Source of the DNA: Lethocerus indicus
Lineage: Eukaryota > Arthropoda > Insecta > Hemiptera > Belostomatidae
DNA length: 64,000 nt
NCBI GenBank assembly: GCA_019843655.1
Contig: JACDQD010000011.1
Coordinates: forward strand, 12,132,604 to 12,196,603
Direction: 5' to 3'
The position numbers were made by a program, and so were the translations under genes. Within the stretch, counting starts at the first letter, position 1. The number at the start of each line of letters is the position of its first letter. Of this stretch, positions 6,833 to 64,000 are shown in pieces. The notes below the pieces were generated by a model that saw nothing but the letters and a program-made list of their open reading frames with translations, did no database searches and was not told the DNA's origin.

Positions 6833-9079
6833 GCAAACAAGCGTTGTCTATTGACTGTGGGAGAAATTATTGTTACAAAGAGTAGAATTAGACATCCAGG
6901 ATCTAATATAGCTAAACGAATGAATATTACATTTTCTAAATAAAAACAATATAACAATAGATTTTGAATTATTATTGATTCTTAAGCTTAAGCTTTTCAA
7001 TAAATTATTCGACTGTAAAAATTCGCTTCAATAAATTAAATGTGGCATTCTAATTCTGTAGCGACTTCTCAAAGTGGGGAATTTGGTTCTTAATGGTTCT
7101 TAATACTAATGTCATAAATTGCAGATTGTTGTTAACTTTTCTTATTGACTTTTATTCCTATATGATAAAATGTGCACAACCGGTGCTGTACTATTGTTTT
7201 TAAATTATATTAAACTAGGAACCGAGGACACCAATGATTTTCATTAGTGGGTATCAACAAATTCGCTGAAATTTTATCCATGAATAATTAAAATTCCGGC
7301 TGAACTCAGTTGCAGTTTGAATATATCATGGGTAACTGCTTATTTTCATGCGATGAACTCCTTTCGGAGTATCAGGTATTAATGGGACCGCTTTTCATTA
7401 ACCCCCTCCCCGGTATAAAGTTTTCCACAGTTTTCCCAGTGTAACTCTCGGCGCCTGAAGTGCGCGGCCCCTGCGTAGGGTGGTAATGAATAGGGGTCCC
7501 CCATCCCTCCCGCCCTTAAACCTGGTCACGATCCTAATCTCCGGCCGCAATATAAATTTCTGAAGAAAATACTTTTAAAAGCCCCCATTGTCGGCAGTTT
7601 CCTTTTGTTGACGGAATTAAGTTTTCAATTTACCCCCCACCCTCCACCTATCCGCCCTCTTTGAAGGACGTTGAAAAAGTTATGTATTAAAGATGGTTCC
7701 CCGAAGGGAGCGTTCAGACTGGCGAGGATTCAATCTCATTGTTCCTCGGCTTTAATACGCTGCATGATTCATGAAATCTTAAAGCGATTGTTCAATTCAA
7801 GTTTAAGCCAGGCTAAGAAAACCGTACTATAGTAGCATCCATTCCTTTAGTACATAAAACTAACCTGTATGAATCAACTAATTGTATGCAGGAAGGTTTA
7901 CCGCGATAACCTTGCATTGATATTAGACTTTGCATTAAAAATCCGAAGTGTTTTCTTAATATCTCATTGTGTCCTGTTTTGAACTATCAGGGCAACACAC
8001 ATCTATGGATCGATAATTGATAAAAAATGTTTTTTAGATTTGGTTGTAGAGCCGACACATTATAGTATGCAATAAACGACCCACTGCATTCATCCATAAT
8101 TGAAACATTGAGATTATAATTAAAAACAAGGATTAATCTCGAAATGAATTTGACGGCTGGTTCTATTTTTTCGGCAATAGACATCCATTGTTTCGTACTG
8201 TAAGTGATCCTCCATCGAGGCGAAAGCCCTTCTTACGTCGACGAGTCACCTCCACTCTCCTACTTGAATTTTCTCTGGAAGGTTCACACTCCTAAGACTC
8301 TTGGCCTAGTTACATTCGTTCATCCGTCCCGTGTGTCCTTCGCAAACCTCAACCCACGACGGCAGTATCTCTTAGCCCAACTCCCCCCAAGCGAAGTTTC
8401 ATTTCTTACGATGCTCTCCAACTCCGGAGTTACAATTTATATGTTTTATATGTTTTTATATCAATGTGTCCACTCAGTGTATAAAACTGGAGAAATTTTA
8501 TCCCACGATATTCTAACTAGTCGGTGAAAACTTTTCCGTGTAAGATATTTATTATAAATATTTTAATTCAGATACGACTATGTAGAAACGTTTTGGTAAT
8601 TTCGTTAATTCGGTGGAACCAACAACAACTATCACTAGACAGACTAGAACAACTATTTCAGCATTCGGTGTAATATAAACTAATTATAGCTGAATCTAAA
8701 GATTCAGCTTTCTGGGCGTGGGGGTACTAACATACTATTGTTTTAGAAGATAGCAAAAAACTATAGTATTCCAAGCCTTGTAGGACTTCCAAACAGGTAT
8801 TTCAAACTATTTATAAGATAAGTTCTGACAAGATGCATGCGGTTTATTTCAATGCGAAATGCTATATAACACATATTATAACATGGGCTATATTCTACGA
8901 CAGTTTCACACCAGAGTTTTCATTATTAATATTGTATCCGGTTAGCCTACATATGTTTGTATTTTATGGTGATTTCGTGAGATATTGATTCTGAACTAGA
9001 ATGTCTAGCTTTTAAGACATGGCGGCTGGAGGGAGTACAGTGCGGTATTCAATTTTAGACCTACAGAAATGAAGTTAAA
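6833..9079. other. No gene seen
   Basis: AT-rich. A GC-rich, pyrimidine-rich patch at 7380-7680 (CCCCTCCCC and CCCCCACCC motifs) may be regulatory. A 107-codon frame (8204-8527) is unrecognised. A small tandem duplication of GGTTCTTAAT lies at 7086-7105. Confidence 0.45.
8688..8709. repeat. Short hairpin
   Basis: AGCTGAATCT and AGATTCAGCT form a perfect 10-bp stem with a 2-nt spacer, so it is better seen as a cruciform than as an RNA hairpin. Confidence 0.6.
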
Positions 9080-9720: not shown

Positions 9721-9867
9721 CTAGGGTAAAATAAAATTAAATAAATTTCCATATATAATTTTCTCAAATCAAAATTCGTTAATAACGGCAGTTAGGTTTT
9801 TCATATTTTCTAGCTTCATTAAGGATGTACTACCACTATATAATGACCGTATGTCAACATACTGCAG

Positions 9868-9928
9868 TTTCTTGATCTTGTTTCTCCTCTAGCGGGTTTG
9901 GTCTTTTAGTAAATCGGTTTTTTGAGCC
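9868..9928 (-). mobile_element. Degenerate copy of the hammerhead-element 3' region
   Basis: It aligns with plus-strand 53248-53310: TTTCTCCTCT, GGGTTTGGTCTTTT and TCGGTTT occur in the same order and spacing. The ribozyme core itself is not preserved. Confidence 0.35.
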
Positions 9929-12684
9929 AAAACCTGTCTAGCAGACAATATTGTAATATTTCAAATCGAGTACCTTCTAGTATTATATTCTATATATTGT
10001 TACGGTCGATAATCCTCAAGTTCAGTATGAATCTTTTTTGGGACATAACTTTCATTTCAAGCAGGTTCCCATTATAAATTTCCGGACGGTGGTTCGTTAA
10101 ATGTTTACGGTCAATTCGTCGCCGGTAATAGAGCGGCCCTGGGCACGCATCCCCCACATCCAGCCGGGTATCCCAATATATTCGGATGGTATAGTCGGGT
10201 ATCCATTTGAATGCATTCCGCCTTAAACGCCCCCCAATTTAATTCCCTCTCCAAGAGGAAATTTAAACGAAATACCCAAACCAGTTTATTTTACCGACCT
10301 GTGCCATTCGATCAGTATCTTGGATACATTAAAGGTTATTAATTTTTCTAGTTTGTATTTTTAAAATCGCGGATCTACCTTTTTTGACAAAAATTAATAA
10401 TTCATTAATAAAGCTACTTGAGTTATAAGCAGAAAAATCACAAAACGGAGCGAGAAAATATATAATAATCCTTCTTTTAAAGATACTATAAAGAAGTAAT
10501 ACCGGCGAGTTGTGTGATTTTCTGTTCCATCTCTCTTGAGGAATGGATCATTCAGTAACATGAAGCTATAACTTTTCGTTTGAATTGTTTTTAAATAGCA
10601 TCTTCCCTTTCGAGATTTTCTACTTTTCTTTTCGTTTTCGGTCCTATGCTTCTCCTTTTCGCTATCGTCAGTAACATTCCGTTAGAAACATAACAAGTTC
10701 AGTTTCAGTATGTTTCAATATATTTAATTATTATCTTCAGTCTTTACAGTTTAATACCCATGGTCTTACTTCCGTATTACTTCTATTCGATACTATAAAA
10801 TACCATATTTATGTCGATATTTATCCGATCGTAAGTATTGCCCAAGTAAAGGAGTTTGAGCTGTACTCTATAGCGCATTTATGATTGTGCCGTTATGCGC
10901 ATCAAAAATGCAGTTTATAGTATAACGTTTAGTGAGTGCCGAGCTTTCAGTCGGGTATTTGGACCCGATACCTCTGTAATTAATTAACACTAGTGGATGG
11001 GGCCCTCTTTCCAGGAGCGCACCTGAGCTCAGCCCCAGAATTCCTCTTCGAAAAGGACAGTAAAAACGCAGTAAAGAGGATCGTGAGGAAGATGAAGAAC
11101 CGAGAGGAAAGCAAGGGCGATAAGCAACTTCTGTGGGGCTTTCGATGAGGGCCACTTAGGTTTAAGGGTGGCGACACCAACCCCTTCCCACCTGCATTAA
11201 TCATTAAGCTCGGCGACCGCTTAAGCAACTTTTCCATTAGCCTCATAAAACAAGTAGGGACATAAAATGAAACCAATATAATCCCGATAGCACATGGGTT
11301 ATGAACCCACTAGCAACACTTGTGAAATATTATCTATCGTAAAATGGATAAGTGGTTGGTGTTTATAATGCATACAAGGTACACGTTGTTTACTACTCAA
11401 CGCCGGCGCGGTTGTGTTTAGTATTATGTTAATTATTAGAAAAAATAAAAGTAAACGTGTGTGGAAGATGTTCGTTATGGGATTGATTACAAATTTATAT
11501 CGATCAAAGAACCTATCATAACCACCGCATTACACGCATCTAAATTATCCTGACTCAAGAAGATTTATGGGTAACTCAATAGACCACGCCGCACTAATTT
11601 AGTTATTTGAAGCAGCTCGTCCATCCCCGTGAAAACTACCTGCGTGCCATATTCTTAGAATTGGACTAAAATTGAATTTACAGTATATGATGAAAAATAC
11701 GACGGTTAGAAGTAGTTATCTGTTAGCCATCTGAAAAATTAGGCCATTTGAAAATTGGTTATTGACTTTAGAAATAGTTTGTGTACTATTCAATAAGGCA
11801 CGAAGGTAAATAATGTATTGTAGGAGTAATAACGAGAATTTAAAATAATCCACTATCCCCCCCCGTAATAAATTGGAAACTGAAATTGTGACGGACGGTT
11901 GAAAATATCTGCCGCACGGAAGTGGGGGTACAGGGCGTGGTCGGAGTTAGCTAAGCCTGGAATTGGGGACCTTGAGGTGGACGCTGTTCAATGTTTTCAG
12001 TCCGTCCTTATTGTAACGATACCGGCGATCTTATGTCGTCATGTTTAGGACCTAATTACCTAATTATTATGTTATCTAGTCTTCAATAGCACGCCCTATC
12101 ACCGAATCAATTCCAATATTCGGCAGGTCCCAAGTTGTGAGTTATAGGAACGCACTCGGCATAACATTTCTCTTGCCTGGAAAGTCGAACTTAATAAGTT
12201 GGCAATGGTTAATTGTCCATTGCGACCCACACTATAACGTTTAAGTAACCAGAATAGCTTTGCTGGTCAGTACATTTATTAGAAATTATTGCCTTCCGAA
12301 TTATTACAAATCTTCCATTGTGGGTGAATGAGAATTTTTCTTGAAATTTTGAAGAAACTTCTCTAGAGGAATGAAGATTATGTAAGCAACCAATATACTA
12401 TTTGATATCTATCCTTATAATTTAGGTTATAAGCCTTCTAAATATTGCCGGATAAGTCCGATTTGAGTGACATGTCTGAAGAAATGCCAGCAATATTTAA
12501 AGTAATGATCGGTTTTATCTAAAAACACCATTTCGACAGTTTTTTTTGCGTATTCTGCCTGCGTACATTCCCTGCCTTCAATTCATAAATAAAACAATAA
12601 TTTTGTTCAACAGAAAACTCTGTATAGGATAATTGACTCGCATCGTAAATAAAGTTCACTGAATTATATCCTGTATTAAATAGA
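9929..12684. other. No gene seen
   Basis: A possible further hammerhead relic lies at 10620-10671 on the minus strand (CTGACGA, then GAAA after an oversized loop), too weak to call. Overlapping minus-strand frames of 95 and 98 codons at 10868-11276 are unrecognised. The remainder is AT-rich with a few GC-rich blocks near 10140 and 11900. Confidence 0.45.
12202..12223. repeat. Short hairpin
   Basis: GCAATGG and CCATTGC form a 7-bp stem around 8 nt. Confidence 0.4.
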
Positions 12685-22200: not shown

Positions 22201-23178
22201 AATTTTAATAATATTAAGAGAAGTCATCATAATCATTGAATCTTAATCTAAATTATAATATTTTGGGCGGTAAATTACTGTGGAGCAAATAGTTCTTATA
22301 ATTTTAAATTGTTTTAATTAAATCTAGCAGAAAATTGTAACTTATTTTGTACCTCTGAATGTTCTATATCGTGAATGATTATTTTTTCAAATGTCAAGTA
22401 TAAAGAATTCATAATAATGTGAAATATGTTGCAATCTACCACGAAAATCTGTTATACGAAATGAGGTAAATTGATATAAAGACATGCTCTGAGTTTATTG
22501 ACTCCTCCCATATTGCAGGCTAAATTCGTATGATAATGAAGACGGGTAATAAGGCTGATAATTAGGAATTTGTTTATTGCTGGTTTGAGAATTTTTTATA
22601 TAACTCCTACAGTTAGGAAGTTCAGAAGGCAGAGTAAATATTTGATTCGATTACGGTAAGAATCAATTTCAATAAAACCTAATTCACGGGGTATAAACAT
22701 GTCTAATTGTGATGTACAAGATCTGCTTCGGAAATCCAAAATATTCATTCCATCGTGCTCTATTATGTCGTGAAACGTTCGCTGTTTGCATCAGATATCT
22801 GTAATGGAAAGTTGTTTATATTGGAAATGGCCGGTGGCCTTTTGGCCCTGAGGGAGGACCCTTGGCCCCCGTCTTCTTCCTAAATCAGGCTGGCCAACGC
22901 CATCTTCATTTATTTCCTTAATGTTTTCCCTACTGGCCTGCGCTAGGGACACGGGGGAATTACTGACTGAGTAATTTTCAACCCTCTTCCGTATAATTTT
23001 CCCATCCTTATTCCCACGAAATTCATCAGAAAATAAATAGGGGAGATCGTAATTCTTAAAAACTGTAATTTGCAAATGTACAAGTGAAAGGAAAATTGAA
23101 TGAGGTTTGGTCATTAGTGCGGGAAGTTCTGGTGAGTGACGAGTGTTTATCGGTAGACATTACATTAATTAAATACCA
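19266..23178. other. No gene seen
   Basis: GC-richer patches lie at 20620-20800, 21480-21600 and 22830-22960, with minus-strand frames of 97 and 107 codons (20545-20838, 22791-23114) that I cannot assign. Elsewhere it is AT-rich. Confidence 0.45.
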
Positions 23179-23209
23179 CTGAAGACCACGAGGTCAAAAA
23201 CGGTCTAGC
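23179..23209 (+). mobile_element. Decayed hammerhead-element relic
   Basis: CTGAAGA followed by CCACGAGGTC, AAAA, ACGGTC and TAGC. The GAAA turn has become AAAA, stem II has lost two bases and helix I does not form. The order of motifs matches the better copies at 47.7 and 53.3 kb. Confidence 0.35.
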
Positions 23210-26200
23210 AGAGTCATATAAGCGGGAATACTATTCCAAAACCAGGCGTACCCCTTTGCCTTCACAAATACAATTACTAATGAATTTAAAGCTTGATGAT
23301 AAATGAAGAATTAAAATCGATCGTGTGCCACACGGATTAATCAATCGTGCCAATTCGATATCTCTAATCATATTGTACTAATCTGAAGATTGGTTGCCTA
23401 AAGGGCTAAAAGTTGATTTGGAAGGGCTCGGTAAAGGCGTTAGAAGGGGGACAATGGGCGGGCCTATCTCCGCTCCTTTTCACCCAATCGTTAGAGCCGG
23501 AGACTTTTCCGCCGGGGCTATTTTCTAGCTCGGTGGACTTTGGAGGAAACCGATTCCTTTCGGATGTGAACCGGCCGGAAGCCTCTTTCCGCGTCAACGC
23601 TTACCACCGTAAACCTATCCGAAGCCATTTTTATCCGCTGTAAAGTTATACGGGGAAAGAAGCGCCTGTTGGAATTAGGTCAACAATTTCAGTAGGATCG
23701 CCCGCGGTTACTTGAAAGACCGGGAGATTGCCAACAACCGGAAGAAAATATGGGATAATGAAAAACGTTACGTGGCGTTTAACTATTACATGGCGCAGAT
23801 TAATAAATATCTAAAAATGAATATTCCTTCCAAAGTCAAAACAATATTTGACTTTTATTTACTAGATTTAATATACCAGGTTTAGTCATATAACTTGCCA
23901 ATAATAAAATATTGTTCATGAAGTATGTAAGGATCACTAGTGAATATCTAGTAATCGTTTGCTGTTTGTGGGATTTATTATTCTTTACAACCTAAAAATC
24001 ACTCTCAATTAAATTTCTGAGTATTTTACTATCGCTGACATTCAGTACGATAACGAGAGCTGAAACGAATAAATAATAAACAGATCGCAGATATTGAATC
24101 AGAATCAATAAAGCATTGTGTGCCCAGATTTGAATTGGAGCTCAGCCGTGGGACGTCTCCTGGCTGCACAGTGCTTATATAATTAATTAATTAATTAGCG
24201 GGTATAGGTCAGCCGGGAGTGGATACTACGAATACAGTATGCATGAGGAGGCAACTCGAACTCGCTCGCGGAGTTGTTTATTCCTCGGATAATTGAAATT
24301 GGAAATGGTCGGCCCAGTGCACCTCCTCGCCACCCCCCCCCCTTGTGACCGCCCCGCCGTCAATAATAAATGTGACCGGATTAATTCGAAAACCGAGCGA
24401 AATTTTCGTTTTATAAATTCAATTCCCGGACCATATTTAGCCCCCGTCCGCTAATTGTATAGCAAGGTTGGTCTATCAATTCCCAAGGTGGCTTTTTCCC
24501 CAATGAATGAGCAAGAAACTAAAATTTTCAGTCGTCCTAATGTGACGGAAATTTAAATTTTACATGGTACAAATTTATCCGCGTTTTAATTCGTACAGTT
24601 GAGCGTTTATTATGCATTTATAATTTTTAAATCCACTACCCTTAGTTATTGGTAATTTTAACACTTATCTTTTATTGATTTTTATATGTACCTCTCTTTC
24701 GTCGATAAGCACAATATAGTACGAGAGGAACTCAGTCATTACACCGACTAGTACTGGTAACGGCTCAATCTAGGTATCTCTTCGAAACTCGGAGAGTGGT
24801 CGCGGTGAAGAACGCTCTTTGAGCGGGAGACAGTCAATACGCCGCAACGTTTCTTTTCCCAGCAATCCCCCAACTCCGGACAAGTGGATTAAGGTTTTCC
24901 CCCCTGCTACGTTTTTCCTACCGTAAGTAGAGAACGCGAGCGCCTCCATCTGGCGGTAGACGGAAAGGGTTGTTGTTCAAAAACGTGGAAATGAATCCTT
25001 GATGAAGAATCTCGTGGAGGAACCGACGGCAAGAACTAGCCCACGATGAAGAGAGAGTAAATTAGTTCAGACCTTAAAGAAGTAGGCTATAGAATACAAG
25101 GCTGTATGGAAGCAAAACACTAGTTTTTATTTTCCTCGGGTAAATTGCCTCTGAAGTTGCCTGTTTTTATGCGAACAAATATTAATTCATTATGTCTCCG
25201 CGATTTTACGTCACGATGCGGCACAAAGGAAAAGAGACGGAGAAGAACGGACGTGGGAATGAAAGACCGGTAAAGGAGGCAAGAGGGAATGACAGACAAG
25301 CGGCGTCGCTGCAGTAATTTTCAATGGGACAGAACCAATATTTCAGCTCATCGCTCTTTCCAAGAGGAGTCGAGACCTTGCCGCGGCGCCCAGAGAGAAT
25401 TTAATAATATTTTCCAAGCCGAGGGACCCGTGATGAATCGTTTTGTCACATCGACAAAAGGCCGCGGGGGCCCGCGTTATTTGAGTTTTCTACCTCATCG
25501 CCTGGTGGAGTTTCTTCGAAACCGAGCCCATGTATAGTCATTACCGGTCGAACGATATTTCCAGACAGGACCAGATCCGGCCTGAATAATAATCGTCGGT
25601 TTGATTTTTTTTAGATTTAACATCTAGCGTCGTTAGTGTTGGTCTTACGGAGACGCCAATTCCCTTTCTGATGGATAAGGCGAGAAATGAAGCTGACATT
25701 CAGCGTTAATAGTAGGCCGTTGTCTCCAAAAAAAAAACGTCCGATTTGCTGTACCGACTGCGAAATTAATAATATAAGAATAACAAAAGCAAGTCGCTTA
25801 AAATTTGGATTTCAAATATTAGTTCATCTTATCTTCACATTAACTGGTTGCTGTATCTATGCTAGTATTGCTTTTTATACGATTCTGATAACCCTGGAGC
25901 CATCTCTAAAATGTAGTATCATCATCTGGTTAATTTTTATACTTTATTTGCATCTAAATATAGACTATATGCCGTTTCATTTCCATGATTCCAGTGGATT
26001 ATTCGTAATTAATCTAATTAATTAGTTTAATAGTACAAATTCATTGAGCACCAATGAGGTCAACACAACTGTTTATCTGTTAATTGTTAACCGGTTGACC
26101 GATATATTTGTATCTGAAATCGTATATAACAATCTGGGGACTTGTGTGTTGTATTGTTTCGTGCGCGGCCGCGTATTGTGACGCGATATAAATCTGGGAT

Positions 26201-27197: not shown

Positions 27198-27300
27198 TCC
27201 TCCGGGCCGGATTTGAACCAGCGACCTATGGATGCCTGATTTGATATTAATTAATCGAGCCAACTACAGTCCACCGCTCTACCAACTGAGCTACCAGAGG
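27198..27300 (-). tRNA. tRNA-Tyr (GUA), intron-containing, copy A
   Basis: Cytoplasmic tyrosine tRNA gene. On the minus strand the exons (27264-27300 and 27198-27233) fold into a complete 73-nt cloverleaf. The 7-bp acceptor stem is CCTCTGG with CCGGAGG, including one U-G pair, and the discriminator is A. The D arm starts TAGCTCAGTTGG, the anticodon stem is GTGGA/TCCAT with anticodon GTA, and the T arm is GCTGG-TTCAAAT-CCGGC. A 30-nt intron (27234-27263) lies one base 3' of the anticodon, the canonical site, as usual for eukaryotic tRNA-Tyr. Box A is at 27282-27293 and box B at 27209-27219. A Pol III stop of four T (27189-27192) lies 5 nt downstream. It sits in a tandem unit repeated at 28067-28169, with identical exons. 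I see no defect, so it is probably functional. Confidence 0.97.
27234..27263 (-). other. tRNA-Tyr intron, copy A
   Basis: A 30-nt intron between tRNA positions 37 and 38, removed by the tRNA splicing endonuclease and ligase. It is AT-rich in its centre. Two bases differ from the copy B intron, whereas the exons are identical. Confidence 0.9.
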
Positions 27301-28066: not shown

Positions 28067-28169
28067 TCCTCCGGGCCGGATTTGAACCAGCGACCTATGG
28101 ATGCCTGTTTTGATATTCATTAATCGAGCCAACTACAGTCCACCGCTCTACCAACTGAGCTACCAGAGG
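28067..28169 (-). tRNA. tRNA-Tyr (GUA), intron-containing, copy B
   Basis: Second tyrosine tRNA gene, 869 bp from copy A in the same orientation. Both exons (28133-28169 and 28067-28102) are identical to copy A, so the whole cloverleaf, anticodon GTA and boxes A (28151-28162) and B (28078-28088) are intact. The 30-nt intron (28103-28132) differs from copy A at two positions. A T4 terminator lies at 28058-28061. The flanks of the two units have diverged with many indels while the 73 exon bases have not changed. That suggests selection or gene conversion keeping both copies working. Confidence 0.97.
28103..28132 (-). other. tRNA-Tyr intron, copy B
   Basis: A 30-nt intron at the canonical position, the same length as in copy A with two substitutions. 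Confidence 0.9.
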
Positions 28170-43366: not shown

Positions 43367-43398
43367 CTGTTATTGAGAGATCCCAAAACCGGTCTAGT
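43367..43398 (+). mobile_element. Decayed hammerhead-element relic
   Basis: CTG followed by GAGAGATCCC, AAAA, CCGGTC and TAG. The 3' half (CCAAAACCGGTCTAG) matches the other copies well, while the CUGANGA box is broken. Confidence 0.25.
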
Positions 43399-43629
43399 AT
43401 TGGAAAAGTAGACGGAAAGGGGAATTCCGGAAACGGCGTAAATCTGAGCTATCGACTATATATAAGTAGAAATATTATTTGAGTCTATTTCATTAATATC
43501 CTATTATTTATATTAATGTCAAGTATTTTAGAATAATTATGGATGACTGTTTCTCTTCCTGGAAGTCTAGTTCGGGCTTTATTTTTTAATAGTATGTTGA
43601 AAGGCGTACCTGAAGTGCTATTTCTTGTA

Positions 43630-46600: not shown

Positions 46601-47722
46601 TAATCTTTTAATCAATTGATGTCCACGTTAAATTGTATTGTCACGTGTCAAGCTCTGTGCCTGGTCAAGGTAAAGTAGTTGCTTGTAGTAATGAAAAGAG
46701 TAAGTTCCAAAATATTCAAGTGCATTTACAGCAGCTGCGAAGTTAATTGCTTAACAGTTAGCAATCTGAAAACGATTAGAGATTTACGCAGTCGTCTTCG
46801 GGCGCGCCCCGACCTCAGAAAACTTTTCCTTTAAATAAAAAAATGTCCGGGATTTAGGAAGTGTAACATTGCCACTTTAATTTGTCTTTATTTCGGGGAA
46901 TTTGAGACATGCAACGTTCTGTAGGTCAGGGCCAATCGGTATCCTATACCAGTGAGTATAGTTTCTGCACAACTCAACTCTTTTTCACATCATTTGAACC
47001 TAGTCAAAGATTTCATTAAATTTGAATATAAACATTTCACTCCCGCATGATTATTATTGTATTTATTATTGTCTTCCTCGTGACAAGATGTATAATATAT
47101 TGTAGCATTTTAAAAATTGTTTTTAGAAAAAAATAGACAGCCACAATAATCCACAAAGGAAATATAACTGACAGAGCAATTAACTTGTCAGCGTACAGCG
47201 ATATGAATATTCGTTGGTGTTGACTATTACTTCATCGTCAATGCTCGTTTTAAACCGCTCATTTTTTAAACCAAATAAAATAGAAAAGCATAATTAAATG
47301 GAAAGAGGAAACGAATTATTTGCGTTCAGCCGTGGGCAAAGGGACAGCTCGAGTGTTTGCGTCCGTCCCAGAAGTAGTTGGAACAACAATGGCGTCAAAC
47401 AATGGCCAGTATGGTAAATTGGACCTTGTAATTATCTTCTCGCTCCTCTTCTAACCTGTATTGTTGTCCCCATTATTAAATATTTAATTAAGCTATTCCT
47501 ATTTTGTAGTCCAACAATAGTAAAACAAGTTTATTTTTCACTCCTCGAATGGATCGATTGAACATTACCTCGAACTTTTAGTTTTAAGGAAGATACTACA
47601 TTTTATAAACCAGACATTAATAGACTGAGTGATTATTACAATATCACGATAACATAACCACTGTCTGATTTTTAAACGAGAAAGCCTGCATCACCGAAAG
47701 ACTGTATGCGTTAAAACGACGA

Positions 47723-47755
47723 CTGAAGACGGTGTCAGATCGAAACCGGTCTAGC
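47723..47755 (+). ncRNA. Second hammerhead-like motif (degenerate helix I)
   Basis: CTGAAGA, a 12-nt stem-loop II (CGGTGTCAGATC), GAAA, CCGGTC and TAGC occur in the order and spacing of 53293-53329. Helix II is GGT/ATC, which keeps pairing through one G-U and one U-A change relative to GGC/GCC. Helix I is poor: the base pair next to the core and the third pair can form, but the second and fourth are mismatched. Probably an aged copy of the same element. Ribozyme activity is doubtful. Confidence 0.4.
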
Positions 47756-50700: not shown

Positions 50701-52689
50701 CCCTCTGAAGTGTCCCTCGTAACAAGTTGAAAAGCCCACGGCCCAGATCTAATCTGGAAAGAATTTTAATGAAAGTGTGAATCCAGGCGTGCAATCTCAT
50801 ATCTCCTGTTCTGGGTTCTCTGTAGAAAACGCCGCCCCTCTATGGACAGGAATGCTTTTATTATAGGTCGAAATGTTGGCTTTAAGTCCGGAAGATAACG
50901 AAATATCTCATCCCTTTCGGTAGTATACCCTGGCCTACTATTACTTAAGCGATTTTAGGGTATTAATTATTCGAACTATAAGCAAAAAAAAATTATTAGG
51001 TATAATATTCTTTACGGTTAGAGAACCCATTATATTCCTAGTTAGTTTAATGCTGGACATGGGTATGTATTAATTTCAATAAATATGTCTGTTTTGTTTG
51101 GCCTTTTAACTAAACTGTTACAGTGGGTTTGCACTACTACACGTTCGAAAGAAGAAGAAAATAATAAAATTGACTGTATAAATACAATTCTTACCTTTGA
51201 CGTCTCTTCGGCTGGATGAGCTGATCCGTGGCCCTACCTAAAACCAAAAGTTTGCAATTAATATATTTCATTACAAAAGCACACAACAGTAATAATAAGA
51301 AGATCTAATTTGAAATGAAATTATACGGTCGACTGAAATGTTATCGGTTTGCCAGATATATCTATACTTGGTAAAACCGCTATCGGCATAATATCTACCA
51401 AGTAGATAAAACATTGACATACAAGCAGCGATGAGAGAATTTTTCTAATGTTCTGATGTAGATGATCCAAGTTAAGTGACTCGGTGACTTGACTAAAAAA
51501 AGAAATCCTTTCCCCAAAGTGAAGTTGACCCGAATCCACCGCCTGGAAAAAGGAAAATAATAGCGGAAGTCTTTAAAAAACGTTTTCGCGTTGGGAAATT
51601 GCGGGTTAACGTTCTCCCATCGCCGCTCGAAACCAGAGCATTGTTCCAGTTTGAGGGCGATGAGGAGGCTTATCGGTCCCCCAAACAGTCGACTTAACTC
51701 CGAGCCCAGTCGATAAATCGATACGCCTACAGACAAATAGCAACGATTTATTGGGCGTTGAAAACTGCTGAAGCATTGCTTGCCAGCATTTTACGACTAG
51801 ATACATATTTTTTACAAGAAGTGGAATTAACAAATATTTACCAACTTAAAAGAGGTCTGAATCTATGCGGGCCTTCGAAAGGTTATTGCTCGTATTAGCT
51901 ACTGTTTTTCACCCCCTATGAAATCAGTACACCTTATAAATGTAATGAGTTCGCAGGACGGATTCATTCAAGAAAGTTATAGCCAACGAATCAGAAGTGC
52001 TTTATTGACGTCAATGAAATTTGACTATATGTTGGGACTTGTATTTTTCTGTACGCCATATTATTGAATGTGCATACTAAAACGGTTTCAACAATATATT
52101 TAAAGTGGAATACTGAATTACTAAGTCATAACTGAGGTTCTGTTTCCTTCTGTTGTGACTTCTAAAGGGAAATGCGACTTGCTGTGACCACCGTTAGTTA
52201 ATAAATCGATCGACAACTTGACTGGGTATCTCTTCCAGTGTTAATGGGGGTAAACCTGAGCGTTTAACGAGGGTAATTTTGGTCCTCACCCCCAGGTACC
52301 GATCACGGCCGATTATATATTTCTCCCTGTCGGCGGTTCGGCTCCAACCTATTAAACGCACGTCACGTCCGGTCAAAACTGAAATGGCACTGCAAACATC
52401 GCACCACCCTACGGGTCCCGGATCGCATTAACTGCAACCTACATACAGAACAATTACATCCAGTCATGTAACACTGAACAGCACCCCTCATAAGTACACA
52501 CCTCAGAATCCCTGTCTTACATATATATACTCAGTATTAGTGTTTCCCCAGAGAGTTTTCCATAGTAAATAACCGTTATCTTCAATTAATCGGGATATGT
52601 AAAATACGAATTTAACAATTCCAGAAATAATTAAGTTTGTGGCCGTTTCGTGAAACAATGTCCTGTTCCAATTCCAAGAATGAGGAGTT
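47756..52689. other. No gene seen
   Basis: A GC-richer patch lies at 50660-50940. Frames at 48490-48741 (opening after an acceptor-like TTTTCAG) and 51395-51736 are unassigned. Otherwise AT-rich sequence. Confidence 0.45.
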
Positions 52690-53030: not shown

Positions 53031-53247
53031 TTACCATTGAATTTAGAGCCTTCCCCAAGCTAAGAATACAGCTTGATAGTAGGAGAGTTACCTAGTTTCT
53101 TGCGCCATTCGAGCCTCCACTAGTTGATTTAATCAGAGGGGCACTGCACAGTTATAGTTACAGGCGTTGGGTGTCTTACAGAGACAGTGACAAAAGAAAA
53201 GCTTCGTTATATATCCGAATTTCATTGTTATAATTCTACATAAAATT

Positions 53248-53292
53248 GTAGGTTCGTGATGTTTCTGTCTCCTCTCGCTGGTTTGGTCTTTT
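53248..53292 (-). mobile_element. Conserved 3' flank of the hammerhead repeat
   Basis: Sequence directly 3' of the ribozyme on the minus strand. A 30-bp stretch (53248-53277) matches 59669-59698 in the opposite orientation with one mismatch. The stretch up to the ribozyme also aligns with 9868-9928, where TCTCCTCT and GGTTTGGTCTTTT are shared. Conservation beyond the ribozyme shows that the hammerhead belongs to a larger mobile element, probably Penelope-like or retrozyme-like. No reverse transcriptase is visible. Confidence 0.5.
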
Positions 53293-53329
53293 GCTAGACC
53301 GGTTTCGGCTGCTCGCCATCTTCAGTAGC
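53293..53329 (-). ncRNA. Candidate type I hammerhead ribozyme
   Basis: Read on the minus strand, the 37 nt are GCTA, CTGAAGA, a 12-nt stem-loop II (TGGC-GAGCA-GCC), GAAA, CCGGTC, TAGC. All conserved core bases are present: CUGANGA, the GAAA turn and a GUC cleavage triplet. Helix I is a perfect 4-bp pairing of GCTA with TAGC that flanks the core exactly as in type I hammerheads. Helix II has three G-C pairs, with one unpaired U before it. Helix III is the minimal ACC/GGT with no loop. Very short helix III is known in hammerheads of Penelope-like elements and animal retrozymes, which are thought to act best as dimers. The 36 bases downstream (minus strand) recur elsewhere in the window, so this is part of a dispersed repeat. 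Activity is inferred. Confidence 0.62.
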
Positions 53330-53367
53330 GGTGTTAGTCACTGTATATATAATATAGTATAAATATA

Positions 53368-53402
<35 letters not shown>
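53368..53402. repeat. (TA)n microsatellite
   Basis: About 17 TA units just upstream (minus strand) of the hammerhead candidate. Short ATAGTATA variants precede it. Confidence 0.9.
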
Positions 53403-53405
<3 letters not shown>

Positions 53406-55311
53406 TAAAATTGTTTAAAGTAGTAATTGTGTAGGCGAAACAAATTTAATATTATAAAAGACAGAAAGTTGAAAGGCTGGAGTTATCAAGATGTCATTTT
53501 GAATTAGCCCGGGTCTGTACACACGGGACCTAATGGAGAGTAAGGTCGAGATGGATATTTCTTTTTCAAAATTTGTCTAAACCCGGGGCCCCGAAAGTAA
53601 TTATAAGGGACACCTGACGAGGCGCGTACCGACACTATGCCTCTAGGGGGGAGGCCGCCATTAATCAGTCTTCCCGGGGCATCCCACCGTCCCGGACTCC
53701 TCCTTACTTCGTTCGCCTTAATTCAGACTAATGGGTCGTCTCCTGGGACAAACCCTCCCCCCAAAAAAGACAAATCGGCTCCAACTATAAGGGAGACAAA
53801 ATTAAAATAAATATTAAGCTGGACTACCTGAAGTTACTTTGCCTGTGTATAGAATGGACAGGCTACCCACCCTATAAATCTTAAATTATGCCAATTTGAT
53901 CTACGAATAGCTGTGATTGCACGCTTACATAAAGCATCCAGACATTTTTTTATAATTTATTTTGACTCTTTGTAAGTACATCAAACAGAGATATGGAATT
54001 GTAAAATAGATAGTAATAAAGGAATAAATATAATTAGAATCCAAATCCTATAATCCATGAATTACGAAACTAATAAAATATACAACCTACTGCCTTTCTA
54101 ATGTTTGAGATTCACTCTGTTCGTTCATTTTCTAATCTTTCTTTGAACCTTTTTTTCATTGCACAATCAACATCAACGTGGGAGCAAGTGATCTTATGTA
54201 CTATTCTGATGTGATTCACATGGTGAATTAAAAAAAACAAATGGCGGCGATACTGGCGAAAATAGTATTCAGCGTCTGATTTCATTATATTGCTCTTGTG
54301 TCTATGTGTGTGTATTCATATAAAGTTACAGTTGTGTGGATTTGGGCCAAAATTGAGAGTGTGGGCAACAGGTCGGTCAAGATATTTTGGCAAGTGGCAC
54401 AACATAAGCTCGTAGCGGAGCTGGGAAGGGAAGCGAAACTGAAATATATAGCTTACAAAATTGAATAAGTAGTTTGTCAGCAATTGGACCAAATATATTT
54501 CCTGACTTTTTTTCAAGGGACTGGCGGAACGAACCAATGAATCGTTAAGACAAAGCTCCTCCCTCAGTTTTGGGGTTAGGTAAATTGTAAATTAAATTAA
54601 ATTTTATTTCCGAGTTCTTGCCAGAGAAAAAACTCAAATAAAATATGCGATTTTAATTTTCCTATTTTTATCGGAGGGTATCTGCAGATTTCTATTGTTA
54701 TTTTTGCACCACTCCTTGAAATTTATACCTGGTACTACCCCCAAACTGGAATATGTACTTGGGTGTAAAAATCATCATCATATAATATGGGCATTATTAA
54801 ATTCATTAATACATTAAGCGAATTTTTCCCTTCCTCAAATAAAAGCGATTAAAATCAATGCCACAAACTGTAATTAAAAAAAAATCTTCCACTTAAAAAA
54901 GTACCTGCAATTAATGAAAAAAAGAGAAATATTATTCGTGGAATAAAAAGTAATAATTTCAACGAAGCAAATAATCAAGTCTCTGGCCTCTGACTGAGCT
55001 TCTCTAGAAAAAAATAAAACTGTCCACTTTACTTAAATTATAATAATAATGAAAGTCTTGAAACCGTCCTTTCCATTTTTTCTTCATTTAAGTGATAGGA
55101 AGGAAAAAAAGGGGCTGGGAGCTTCTCGATGCCTCCTGCGGAGCTCAGGAAAAATAATGAATAAACAGAGCCCGGGGCTCTCCTTTGGGTTCTTATCCTC
55201 GAATTCAGGATTGGAATTTTCCGACGTGGCTTTAATATTTTTTTTTATTTTCCCCCTCTCCCTCTCTCACTCTTTCACTCCCTCCCTCGCTCTTTCTCTA
55301 TCTCACTTTCT

Positions 55312-59338: not shown

Positions 59339-59668
59339 GCAGAAACAAAAACTAAGGGCTAATTTTTACCCAACATTATTTATTTATAATGCAGAATCAA
59401 CGGGTGACATTTTAACTCTTTATGAATGTTCTTAATTAAACTTAATTGAATCCTGGCGCAATAATGTATTCAAATGGTACATTAACGGTAATAATATGTA
59501 AAACACGTAGCTTTTGTATTGCTTATCGGACAATATAATTAAAATACACAGGTTTTCCTAAAATGCATGCCGTAGAATGTTTGGATAAGGTTAGACTAAT
59601 TGTTACCAATGGGTGATTTGTCAAAACAATTGTCGCAATTGTCAAGTCGACAGTGTAACATTACGTAC

Positions 59669-59698
59669 CGAGAGGAGACAGAAACATCACGAATCTAC
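59669..59698 (+). mobile_element. Inverted partner of the hammerhead-element flank
   Basis: A 30-bp sequence starting CGAGAGGAGACAGAAACATC matches the reverse complement of 53248-53277 with one mismatch (24 bp perfect). No hammerhead core lies upstream, so this is a truncated copy or a shared terminal module. Confidence 0.5.
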
Positions 59699-60330
59699 AG
59701 TATACACTCAACACTTCTACACATAATTATGTTATAATTGATTGTACAAATAAAAACAAAAAATGGCCAATAAGGTCAATTATACTGAAAGGGGCTAAAA
59801 GATTATTAATAAACCGTTCGATTTTCTGTCTGTTCCAGCGACTGTTCGATAAGCACGAGAGTAGAGAGGATGGCCTCTTCGCAAGGGGACGTTAGCAGCC
59901 GGCCCCTCTGACAAAGGGAGGAGACTGTCGACAGTCACCTGTCGCAGTCCAGCGATCTATAGCATCAAACGAACAACAGCGGCAATAGCAGCAGCAAAAA
60001 CAGTTCACCTTCAATTAATAACAGAATAACACTACAAGGAATTGCTTATTTAATATTGTTCCATATCCTGTGGTCGGGCGGCCGCCGGTGGCCGTCCCGC
60101 CCGTCGCCGCCACTCCAAATATTGGACGCTCGGGTCGCGGCCCAATTTGGTTTTTTCGTCTAAGACTTGCGATTTGTCAATTACTTTTTTTGGAAAACGA
60201 AAGGGAAACAAATAATAATAAATTCGCATAACGAGGTCGCCGCCGAACGCTGGAAAGTTGCGGGCAGCCTCGGGGACGCGTGAGTGACGAACTCGAGACT
60301 CACAGACCACACGACCGCGATACATACCAA

Positions 60331-63300
60331 CTTGACCGTTTCATCGCCTACAGTTCATACACACAAATACACAGACAGCTATGAGGCTGACGTACGGGAC
60401 AATATGGCTGGAATCAGATAAGAAATTTGGTAAAGTCTTGAACTGTACGCGACTGTACTGACCGGGAGAAAAAACAGCATTTTTTTAGATTCTAATCGTG
60501 TGATTCTCCGGTCACCGTTTTTGCTTCCATTTCGATACAACGTAACGAAAAAATTCATACTCTCCGACCCAATATCAATTAGGTTAAGTGCTAAGTTGTT
60601 GAGACACCATGTACTGAACTGTGAAGATTAACTCCGGTGAATGGACATATTGCTACAATTATTAGTCCCCTCCCCTTTGTTTTGCGGTCTATTCAACTTC
60701 ACTGTTGGCAAACTTTCAATTTACGACCGGCTGTAATTCCACCGACCGTTTCCCACTAAATGATGTTTTCGGGTGTTTAATTAATTTCAATTTCCATCGG
60801 GTAGCTTTTAGAGTAATTCGGAGCGCGCTACTGTCGATAGAACCAACAGAGGATAGTGAACTACCGAAATTGGAAATGCTTATATCAATTTCAAAAAGTC
60901 GATCAATTCACAGACTATCCCACAGTTATATTATTTGTTGATGAAAAGAAGGAAGACAGTTGAAATGGATCCAAAGTCAATAAAACTGACAGCAAACACG
61001 AAATAATCATTTCGATGGCGTAGCTACTTAATTTTTCGTCTGTAGAGGAATATATTTGTGTTCGAAAATAATTTTCATATAATATTTATTTAAGAATCTT
61101 GCAATAAATTATTCCATAACTGTACTCTAAAGTTCAGAATACTAGTCCTGTGAGTTTATGACTACCGTCATAAACTAGCGTTGAACTGAAAATATTACTT
61201 TCCTTTTTACGTAAGTTCATTTCAAAATATGAAAACGGTTCATATTAATTAATATTACGGTTCGTAAGAAAGATATTACCACATTAACGAAGAATTCCCG
61301 CTGGTTGATTAAGCTATCGTGGGTTAGTTTCAGAACCTAATCGACAGTAACTTGATAACATGTCTAAATTAGAAAAAAGTCTCCTTCTCTGTAAAACACT
61401 TCGCATTAGCCGCGTTCTTAAAGCACGCATGTGAGGATGCGAGAGGGAGAGGTTATTTGCCTTTTTAATTATTCATACTAATTCACTATATTTAGAAGGT
61501 TCCGTATACACTTTTGTGTCTCGAAATAATAAGGGGATTATTATTCCAACCAAATCAAGTCAAAAACGAACTATCAGAATCAGAACTAATTATGAGAATA
61601 ATAAATAGAAACAGAAACAAGAGATGGGTTACCCAATGTTTTAATTTTTTAAAATTTCTATTTGAGGTAAGGACAGCTCACTAGATCGCATAACACTGAT
61701 CTTTCATCGTCCAAATAATTCACACCAGATAAAAATCTCCATTCAGATTTGCTTATTAAATTGTTAAAGGTAAACAAGTGTTATTAGACAAAGAAAAAGA
61801 AAATTACCATTAATTACAAATATCATTGAGATTAGAACCTCCGTTCTTTCGATAAAATCATTCACATGCTATAAAAGTCAGTAAATGTCATGTTTAATAA
61901 AAATAATTTAAATATTTAGCTCGGGAAAATTTGTCATGCCTTTGCTCGTGCTCAAAACTGTAAACACATTTTACACGGTATGAATACATGCTTTTAGATT
62001 CATTATTCTTACATTTTCTGATAAATGAAACAAGTGGCCTTCAATAAGTTCAGGCATTGAAAAGTTATAGGCGCATAAACCAGTGGATATTATAAATTTT
62101 AATTATGATTGTTTTAAATTTATGGGCTTAACATATATAATTTCAACTCTGAAGTGAATCTTGAGTGGAAAAAGTTAATTTCGTCCGAGGATATTTCTTC
62201 TGTCCGCGTTTGCCGAGAGTTAAGAACTAGGCGATTTATGCAGCTTCTTCTTTCCTGGGTTGAAGTATTGCACCTTCTCAGCGAGGTCATAATTTCTAAT
62301 TTCAGCACCCTTTTCATTTTATAGTTTGAACGAAAAAATAAAGTAGTCGGTGGTACATCACCCCCGCTAAACGCCTATAAACCGGTCGTTGCTCAGCGCA
62401 TTTTTTCTGTTTCCTGCTGCTTGTATGGAAATGTCTCATTGAAAGCTTTCTAATTTCTAATGTAGCAGCTAACTCATCAAGCCACCCTTGTTCGCCCTTG
62501 TTCAGCATTCATAGCACTGATCATAGACATTTAATAAATGGACAATTAAGATTGATAGATTTTCTCGACTTCTTTAGATTTCATTATTTTACAGAGGGGG
62601 CCCTGGCAAACCATGCGAACTGACACTTGTGGCTGATTGTTCTGCGGTGTAATAGGGCTGTTCCTATCTCACTCTGACACTATTTTCCCCCAAATGGCTC
62701 CGACTCTGAACCTCTCCCCCTCTCTGTCTGCGGCCCACCACTTTGGCCCCTGTCCAGGACGACGTACGCATTACGAGGGGTGTGCGGACACTCACAAAAA
62801 CGACCACCACTCACGAGGGGTAATGTTGCAATTAAACACGCGAATCACGACGCGCGCGCGCACCTACACGCATGGATGGTTCTCTAAAAAAAATCTAGAT
62901 TCCACACCAAGCTTAGACTGTGTTAGTTTGGACTCGGTTTAAACCATTGGCTGCCATTCACCTCTGATAAGTTAGAGAAGCATTGTAGAATTAATTTGAA
63001 AATATTTAGTACTCCATTAGGTACATTGCGTCATACTTCCAAATTTTGCTGTTCAATTCAATTTATGAAAACTCAAAAAATTAAAGCCTTCGTATCATCA
63101 TATTTGCTTTTGATTCAGAAACATATAATGGTGTACAGGCATCGAAAACTGATCCATGTCTGTCATACAATCATCCCTACTAGAAAGCTTTCTTTCCGAA
63201 TTTGAAAAATAAAGACATCACAAAAAATAACATATAATGTTTCTAGAATAAGCCAGAACTGTTTCACTCTTTAACAAATTTTTAATAATTCCCTCTTTCA

Positions 63301-64000
63301 AAAACTAAAAATGCCTTTTATAATATTTCAACACAATCCCATCGCCGAAATAATGTCAATTTGATAACAGCTGTTATACAATCGAAAATTTATAAGGATG
63401 TGTTATTAATCGATAGAATGCTAGTTGAACACTCAATACTGTTGATATATCATTTTGAACTGCATTTGAACACATCACAGAAAATCATGCTTTCGTCAGG
63501 CATTCATACTTGATCCAAGAGGATGGCAGTCAAAGGTTCTGGGTTTTCTGACACCTATTTTTCGACACAACCTGAACAGCATTTCGTGTGATTTTCAGTT
63601 TGTAAGAATGTTTTCCACCTCGGGAAGGACGAAAAACTAAAAAGGACTGAAAAGAAATCCTTGTAAAATAAATTGCCCGTTACTTAGATAAGACACACTT
63701 TTCAGGATTAAGTTAATGAAAAGTCATATATAATTACCAAAAACCATTGACATAAATTGGAGGGTTACTCTTGAATCTTCTGGTTCTAAACCAGATTTCA
63801 TATGATGCGACAAGAAATTGTCGTTTCGACTCTTTTAAATAAATGATTTACATTTAAACAAGAAATATTTTTATTACTGGCTTCAACAATTAAAATTACA
63901 ATGAGGCAGTACAACTTTGTCTTCCACTAACAGTCATCCGGGAATATAACTAATAGCTGGTAGCTAATTTGTTGCATTAAATTCTCTAGTTACGGAATTA
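60331..64000. other. No gene seen
   Basis: AT-rich sequence with one short hairpin (61153). A GC-richer patch at 62640-62870 has a 101-codon frame (62637-62942) and a CGCGCGCGCG run. Nothing is assignable to a gene. Confidence 0.45.
61153..61176. repeat. Short hairpin
   Basis: AGTTTATGAC and GTCATAAACT form a perfect 10-bp stem with a 4-nt loop. Confidence 0.6.

Follow-up and report, generated by a model that had tools for sequence, protein, structure and literature searches.

The motif occupies positions 53293–53329 on the minus strand of the window, by which we mean the whole 64-kb stretch of Lethocerus indicus DNA that was analysed. It is a minimal type I hammerhead motif, the core bases and pairing of which were read from the sequence, and both its location and its 37 bases, GCTA-CTGAAGA-T-GGC-GAGCA-GCC-GAAA-CCGG-TC-TAGC, were as the initial annotation had given them. 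The outer stem, helix I, has 4 bp, GCTA/TAGC (53326–53329/53293–53296), and is followed by CUGAAGA (53319–53325) and an extra U (53318). Helix II has 3 bp, GGC/GCC (53315–53317/53307–53309), around the loop GAGCA (53310–53314); then come GAAA (53303–53306), CCGG (53299–53302), U16.1 (53298) and C17 (53297), and cleavage is predicted between 53297 and 53296. The invariant core described earlier was found in all its parts (CUGANGA, GAAA and the GUC triplet), as were helices I and II, and by its core CUGANGA...GAAA...NUH with these two helices the motif belongs among the hammerheads.

The same annotation had called the hammerhead complete and credited it with a minimal helix III, which proved too generous. 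The helix III region consists of A15.1–U16.1 and one C–G pair closing a 2-nt loop, a loop that the ViennaRNA model disallows; a stable helix III is absent from the monomer, helix I has only 4 bp, and a competing hairpin, GGTCT-AGCAAA-AGACC (53285–53300, minus strand), spans the cleavage site together with one of the helix I strands. In place of a stable helix III stands ACCGGU, a self-complementary palindrome that can pair one copy of the hammerhead with another. Hammerheads of Penelope-like elements (PLEs) that also lack a stable helix III are already on record in the parts of two reports drawn on here (PMC6155905, PMC7761336).

The hammerhead lies in a 97-bp retroelement-derived segment (53248–53344, minus strand) made up of the end of a pseudo-LTR (pLTR), the ribozyme motif and the first part of an ORF, and ending ...CACGAACCTAC. 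In a BLAST comparison, 53247–53344 (98 bp) was 100% identical to a genomic copy, L016. A TA-rich stretch (53345–53404, minus strand) forms the 5' junction, at the point where the pseudo-LTR of longer copies continues. A candidate target-site duplication, AATTTTAT, is present on the minus strand at 53240–53247 (3' copy, 10 identical bases with the preceding AC) and at 53405–53412 (5' copy). This duplication is just 8–10 bp long and encloses the TA repeat, and it is suggestive when taken alone, because repeats of at least 10 bp occurred at the expected distance at 0.9% of 3,384 window positions (0.4% in shuffles) and anywhere in the range tried at 9.8% of window positions (4.6% in shuffles). In the longer copy L009, 160 bp lie between perfect 12-bp duplications. 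The window copy is a 5'-truncated insertion in AT-rich DNA and is dead as an element. Two sub-threshold matches were seen in its neighbourhood: the C/D snoRNA snoR27 overlaps the element end (53178–53268, plus strand; 27 bits against a cut-off of 41, E 0.09), and, with stops read through, Pfam TMEM251 matched 52359–52505 on the minus strand (E 0.0017; 18.9 bits, cut-off 27).

We searched the 64 kb for other remnants by BLAST and with a profile built from the motif plus tail. A second remnant consists of tail only (59669–59703, plus strand, 34 of 35 bases identical). The third, 79% identical, has the tail and the 3' end of the ribozyme (9859–9920, minus strand) and stands head-to-head with an inverted ribozyme end at 9925–9943 on the plus strand. 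A fourth remnant (47722–47755, plus strand) is a core-complete hammerhead with an extra C, a helix II of GGT/ATC and a broken helix I; in helix II one pair is changed on both sides (C–G to T–A) and another to a wobble. The fifth contains distal tail (8758–8806, plus strand, 75.5% identical, E 3e-4), and there were two weak, possible further ones on the plus strand at 23178–23210 (E 0.17) and 43383–43399 (E 0.28). The best three remnants scored 52.7, 45.5 and 30.1 bits, whereas neither shuffling the window 100 times nor shuffling the query 100 times produced more than 29.2 bits; on the reversed window the profile had no match at E up to 1. Elsewhere in the window we noticed two Rfam tRNA matches of 103 nt and 58 bits each (27198–27300 and 28067–28169, minus strand), probably intron-containing, which form a direct duplication with a spacing of 869 bp and 89% identity over 234 nt; ARAGORN with bacterial settings reported neither.

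The host assembly (426.8 Mb, 209 contigs) was searched with the 191 bases of 53150–53340, minus strand. The 42 matches listed, from 40 scored of 504 candidates, comprised the window itself, two 49-bp pieces and 39 others, and all of these 39 began at query base 1 or 2 and stopped at 95–116 of 191, with 93–100% identity. Eight fetched copies, the window copy included, all end ...CACGAACCTAC, followed by AATT. This short 3' end lies 72 nt past the ATG of the ORF, and a second 3' end lies about 114–118 nt past it; when a longer copy served as query (171 bases), 30 of the 41 matches listed (40 of 850 candidates scored) ended at 134–137, which corresponds to 115–118 nt past the ATG. Three pairs of the fetched loci, L007/L008, L009/L010 and L011/L012, proved 100% identical across about 3.1 kb, and each pair entered the later counts once. 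The contigs that hold these identical pairs, C9/C100 and C3/C133, are probably duplicate haplotypes in the assembly. After L008, L010 and L012 had been dropped as duplicates, along with pattern hits lacking the CTAC end, there were 65 distinct copies in which this end was recognisable. The longer tail follows in 28 of them; the other 37 were assigned to the short end, and at least one of these (L011, plus strand) is a long tail with a deletion. In raw counts, the bases after the short end were AATT, AAAA, AATA or AACA in 20 of the 37 and AGTA, the first bases of the tail, in 12.

Direct repeats of at least 8 bp were present at the expected place in 18 of the 37 short-ended copies, compared with 6.3% of 729 shifted control positions. 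These target-site duplications are most often 12 bp long (exactly so in 10 of the 18), and two of the 18, one in L014 and one in L035, resemble internal repeats. Copies inverted head-to-head were found in L007, L016, L020 and L026. To gather copies independently of the ribozyme, we used a non-ribozyme anchor, which gave 82 copies; the core was present in 56, and 47 of these had the 4-bp helix I, the 3-bp helix II and the one-base insert, fractions that are not genome averages because the loci were picked by similarity. In the 26 anchored copies without an intact core, the cause was decay, truncation or the limit of the 70-nt view. In six regions of 9.9 kb each (59.4 kb), placed arbitrarily, the profile had 19 matches with an E of at most 0.01, confined to three of the regions, and it had none on the reversed sequences. 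Twelve of the 19 fell in one region, L048, a dense cluster of family ends; the window has four matches at the same threshold. Very roughly, these densities suggest tens of thousands of family matches across the genome.

The unpaired U after CUGANGA had been regarded as the one irregularity of the motif. A single unpaired U is indeed there, yet it is no oddity, since one base separates the core from helix II in 62 of the 63 distinct contexts with a matched core and paired helix II (window and L006–L047); the sole context without an insert, in L041, looks like a chance match, and in none of the 82 anchored copies does a 3-bp helix II follow A9 without an intervening base. In the window copy A9-U-G is the start codon (53319–53317) of an ORF that begins within the ribozyme and runs for 27 codons to a TAG (53236–53319, minus strand), its first 24 codons lying inside the element, and the predicted cut site is 23 nt past the ATG. 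The N-terminus of the ORF is common to other genomic copies, with a shared peptide of about 38 aa, for which searches of protein databases found nothing. The base that seemed irregular is the second letter of the start codon and belongs to the normal layout of the family, because the layout of the copies matches that of Penelope-like elements, in which the ATG lies at stem II. In a few related copies the extra base is C or A, so it is the position and not the identity of the base that is kept.

Very likely, in our view, the motif belongs to a family of Penelope-like retroelements and represents the hammerhead located where their pseudo-LTR meets the ORF; the window holds a short, 5'-truncated copy of this family in AT-rich DNA. 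The assignment was made because the terminal repeat, the hammerhead, the ORF start and the optional tail together reproduce the published layout of PLEs: the hammerhead sits at the pLTR/ORF junction with the start codon at stem II, by layout and with the ORF known as the shared N-terminus; there are two fixed 3' ends within the ORF start, corresponding to the optional tail; target-site duplications are present; and the head-to-head pairs show the inverted pLTR arrangement. A Penelope-type hammerhead, one of the two origins proposed in the initial annotation, is thus well supported, and many genomic copies keep its core and pairing. The element is of an already-known kind, represented here by a family with many nearly identical copies.

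The closest parallel, compared by description, is PAc of Anolis carolinensis, a Poseidon-type PLE. There, too, the hammerhead lies over the start of the ORF, which begins at stem II, with C3 and G8 preceding the ATG (PMC11167929). PAc is cut 26 bp past the ATG (PMC11167929), compared with 23 nt here, and its reverse transcription starts within an AC-rich stem-loop, at 111–118 bp of the ORF (PMC11167929), which resembles our long end at about 114–118 nt. An optional tail, of 30–40 bp in PAc (PMC11167929), is common to PAc and the L. indicus family. PAc inserts at AT-rich targets (PMC11167929), and the window copy too lies in AT-rich DNA. Unlike in PAc, no coding copy was found here, and the duplications are mostly 12 bp. 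In Penelope of the rotifer Adineta vaga, as far as the excerpted part of that report goes, the pLTR holds the first 12 aa, or 22 aa with a 31-bp tail, compared with 24 aa at our short end; inverted pLTRs, palindromes at the inverted junctions and short target-site duplications (8–10 bp in A. vaga) are shared, whereas the A. vaga families are low-copy with ORFs of 838–842 aa and the L. indicus family has very many short copies (PMC3846280).

No reverse transcriptase or GIY-YIG endonuclease was found by Pfam within about 5 kb of the motif on its strand. Reading through stops, we covered 14900–64000 on the plus strand and 33500–58300 (bar 12 bases inside the motif) and 59600–64000 on the minus strand, and in these regions, about 61% of the two strands of the window, Pfam likewise matched neither domain. 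A six-frame Pfam search of the cluster L048 showed no reverse transcriptase domain or GIY-YIG endonuclease either. These results bear on the best-surviving alternative, that the family is not a truncated coding PLE but a high-copy, SINE-like non-autonomous element that borrowed a PLE terminal repeat and hammerhead and spreads in trans. In its favour, the longest ORF from the ATG in L006–L047 is 109 aa, GIY-YIG had no match in the whole genome (three candidates scored; the control was positive in 12 of 14 genomes), and 19 profile matches occurred in the 59.4 kb of arbitrary regions. However, the shared N-terminal peptide and the two 3' ends suit the ordinary truncation of a PLE, the Pfam model may miss PLE endonucleases, and the fetching of loci by similarity to the terminal repeat favours short copies. 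Reverse transcriptase matches do exist in the genome: 150 of 611 RVT_1 candidates were scored as matches, seen without their surrounding loci, and none was linked to the family. We therefore regard a borrowed, trans-mobilised element as possible but clearly less probable than truncated copies of an ordinary PLE.

From the anatomy of the family and the PLE literature, we infer how a parent Penelope-like element might work. Its ribozyme would span the start codon of a protein-coding ORF, and reverse transcription would start at either of two sites in the beginning of that ORF, 72 or about 114–118 nt past the ATG. We propose that new copies end alike because reverse transcription begins at one of these two fixed sites, and many of them would be truncated toward the 5' end. 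The ribozyme appears too small to be active alone, and cleavage after the GUC might take place in dimers, with two copies pairing via the ACCGGU palindrome; alternatively, the protein of the element might refold the RNA and so enable cleavage at this place.

Predicted folding energies bear on this step. The monomer hammerhead without helix III has −5.1 kcal/mol and the best fold −9.1 kcal/mol, while for the dimer the values are −20.1 and −23.0 kcal/mol; with 19 downstream bases the dimer hammerhead has −23.5 against −29.8 for the best fold, and with 13 further upstream bases −23.1 against −35.6. In the bare 37-mer the pair probability of helix I is about 0.8 (0.26 for the innermost pair); it is 0.09 with 10 nt of flank and at most 0.0033 with 20, 40, 80 or 150 nt. 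Given these monomer and dimer energies, and given that the PAc ribozyme cleaved only when its protein was added (PMC11167929), dimer- or protein-assisted cleavage is probably the way in which the ribozyme would work, if it cleaves at all. Dimeric cleavage is reported for small PLE hammerheads (Lunse et al. 2017; Cervera and de la Pena 2014), which by description are also minimal type I motifs without helix III. In the excerpt consulted on the type I hammerheads of newt and axolotl, which are more active as dimers, HHR_Amex1 has a single-pair helix III with a palindromic tetraloop, as here, although these ribozymes differ in having contacts between loop 1 and loop 2 and in forming tandem repeats of 330–350 bp (PMC7229834).

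The GGTCT/AGACC hairpin is present in the minimum-energy folds with 10, 20 and 40 nt of flank and in the flanked dimers, as would be expected if the hairpin were the working structure and the ribozyme fold a relic, with the stretch kept only as start codon, N-terminal codons and start of reverse transcription. Likewise, hammerhead mutants of PAc still inserted in vitro, and RNA-seq ends were not seen at the cut site (PMC11167929). Against a relic speak the retention of the core and both stems in the 47 of 82 anchored copies and the divergent copy at 47722, which keeps its core while the helix II pair was changed on both sides from C–G to T–A, and we judge this reading to be rather unlikely. 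A more far-reaching interpretation would see the family as a short PLE derivative of very high copy number, possibly non-autonomous and mobilised in trans, GIY-YIG being undetected in the genome. An RNA of about 40 nt would in that case be at once the start-codon region, a dimer-dependent ribozyme and the neighbour of the launch sites of reverse transcription, switched by the competing hairpin; we put this forward tentatively, as an improbable reading.

The other origin proposed in the initial annotation, an animal retrozyme, that is, a non-LTR tandem repeat of 150–450 bp producing circular RNA, agrees with a type I hammerhead in low-GC DNA, but no tandem array of this size surrounds the motif, helix I has just 4 bp, and the copies lie scattered as separate insertions, often flanked by target-site duplications and in some cases inverted head-to-head; the lack of such repeats led us to reject it as very improbable.

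A chance resemblance was at first favoured by the bulged U and by the silence of Rfam. The Rfam search that had been suggested found no hammerhead anywhere in the window when the gathering cut-off was applied, and relaxing the threshold to E 10 brought out none either, whether in the 701 bases surrounding the motif or in the 301 bases surrounding the copy at 47722. The same was seen at the gathering cut-off in the 138,614 bases of L014–L027, where our pattern lists 26 hammerhead-like matches. We also scanned the viral_contigs and genome_contigs collections for relatives outside the host with patterns, some of which followed the look of PLE hammerheads, and obtained L001–L005. L001–L004 were rejected as PLE relatives; by eye they are prokaryote or phage sequence with no visible PLE context (ORFs were listed for L002), and Rfam scans of L002 and L004 at the gathering cut-off were empty. 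L005 is a separate hammerhead in a phage-like contig (IMGVR_UViG_3300030329_001222, 9862–9916, plus strand), located by the pattern and used as a control. It has a 6-bp helix I, GUUAUU/AAUAAC, CUGAUGA, an extra U, a 4-bp helix II, GAAA, a closed helix III and GUC, and it folds as expected (z −3.3, one of 200 shuffles equally good), yet no hammerhead is reported in it by cmscan with Rfam 15, even with matches up to E 10 allowed. It sits 25 nt upstream of a small ORF (9942–10205), and another ORF of the contig (6433–8013) is GroEL-like by eye. Rfam likely misses these hammerheads because its models score the one-base insert badly; inserts of one or two bases beside CUGAnGA are recorded in the consulted part of PMC10085705.

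The descriptor, which allowed 0 or 1 inserted base, matched once in the window, compared with a mean of 0.0025 per window in 400 dinucleotide shuffles. Single-strand Markov sequence totalling 480 Mb contained three matches with the insert and three without (0.0008 each per window), none of which carried the ATG or the palindrome. The initial annotation had named three things jointly as what would speak against a hammerhead: no covariance-model hit, no cleavage even as a dimer, and genomic copies that do not keep core or pairing. Many of the copies retain both, despite the silence of Rfam. Chance is therefore extremely improbable in spite of the shortness of the motif, the silent models and the context-free matches L001–L004: the PAc report, an expectation of 0.0016–0.0025 motifs per window and, as the strongest argument, a genomic family whose copies retain the motif contradict it.

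These results suggest that the Rfam hammerhead models overlook hammerheads in which a single additional base separates CUGANGA from helix II, and annotation pipelines that depend on these models would miss such ribozymes. The hammerheads of PLEs are conserved, and their activity in vivo and their role are, in the part of a report used here, 'still a mystery' (PMC7761336). With its nearly identical copies, its defined ends, and intact ribozymes beside decayed ones, the L. indicus family is good material for asking whether selection keeps the ribozyme.
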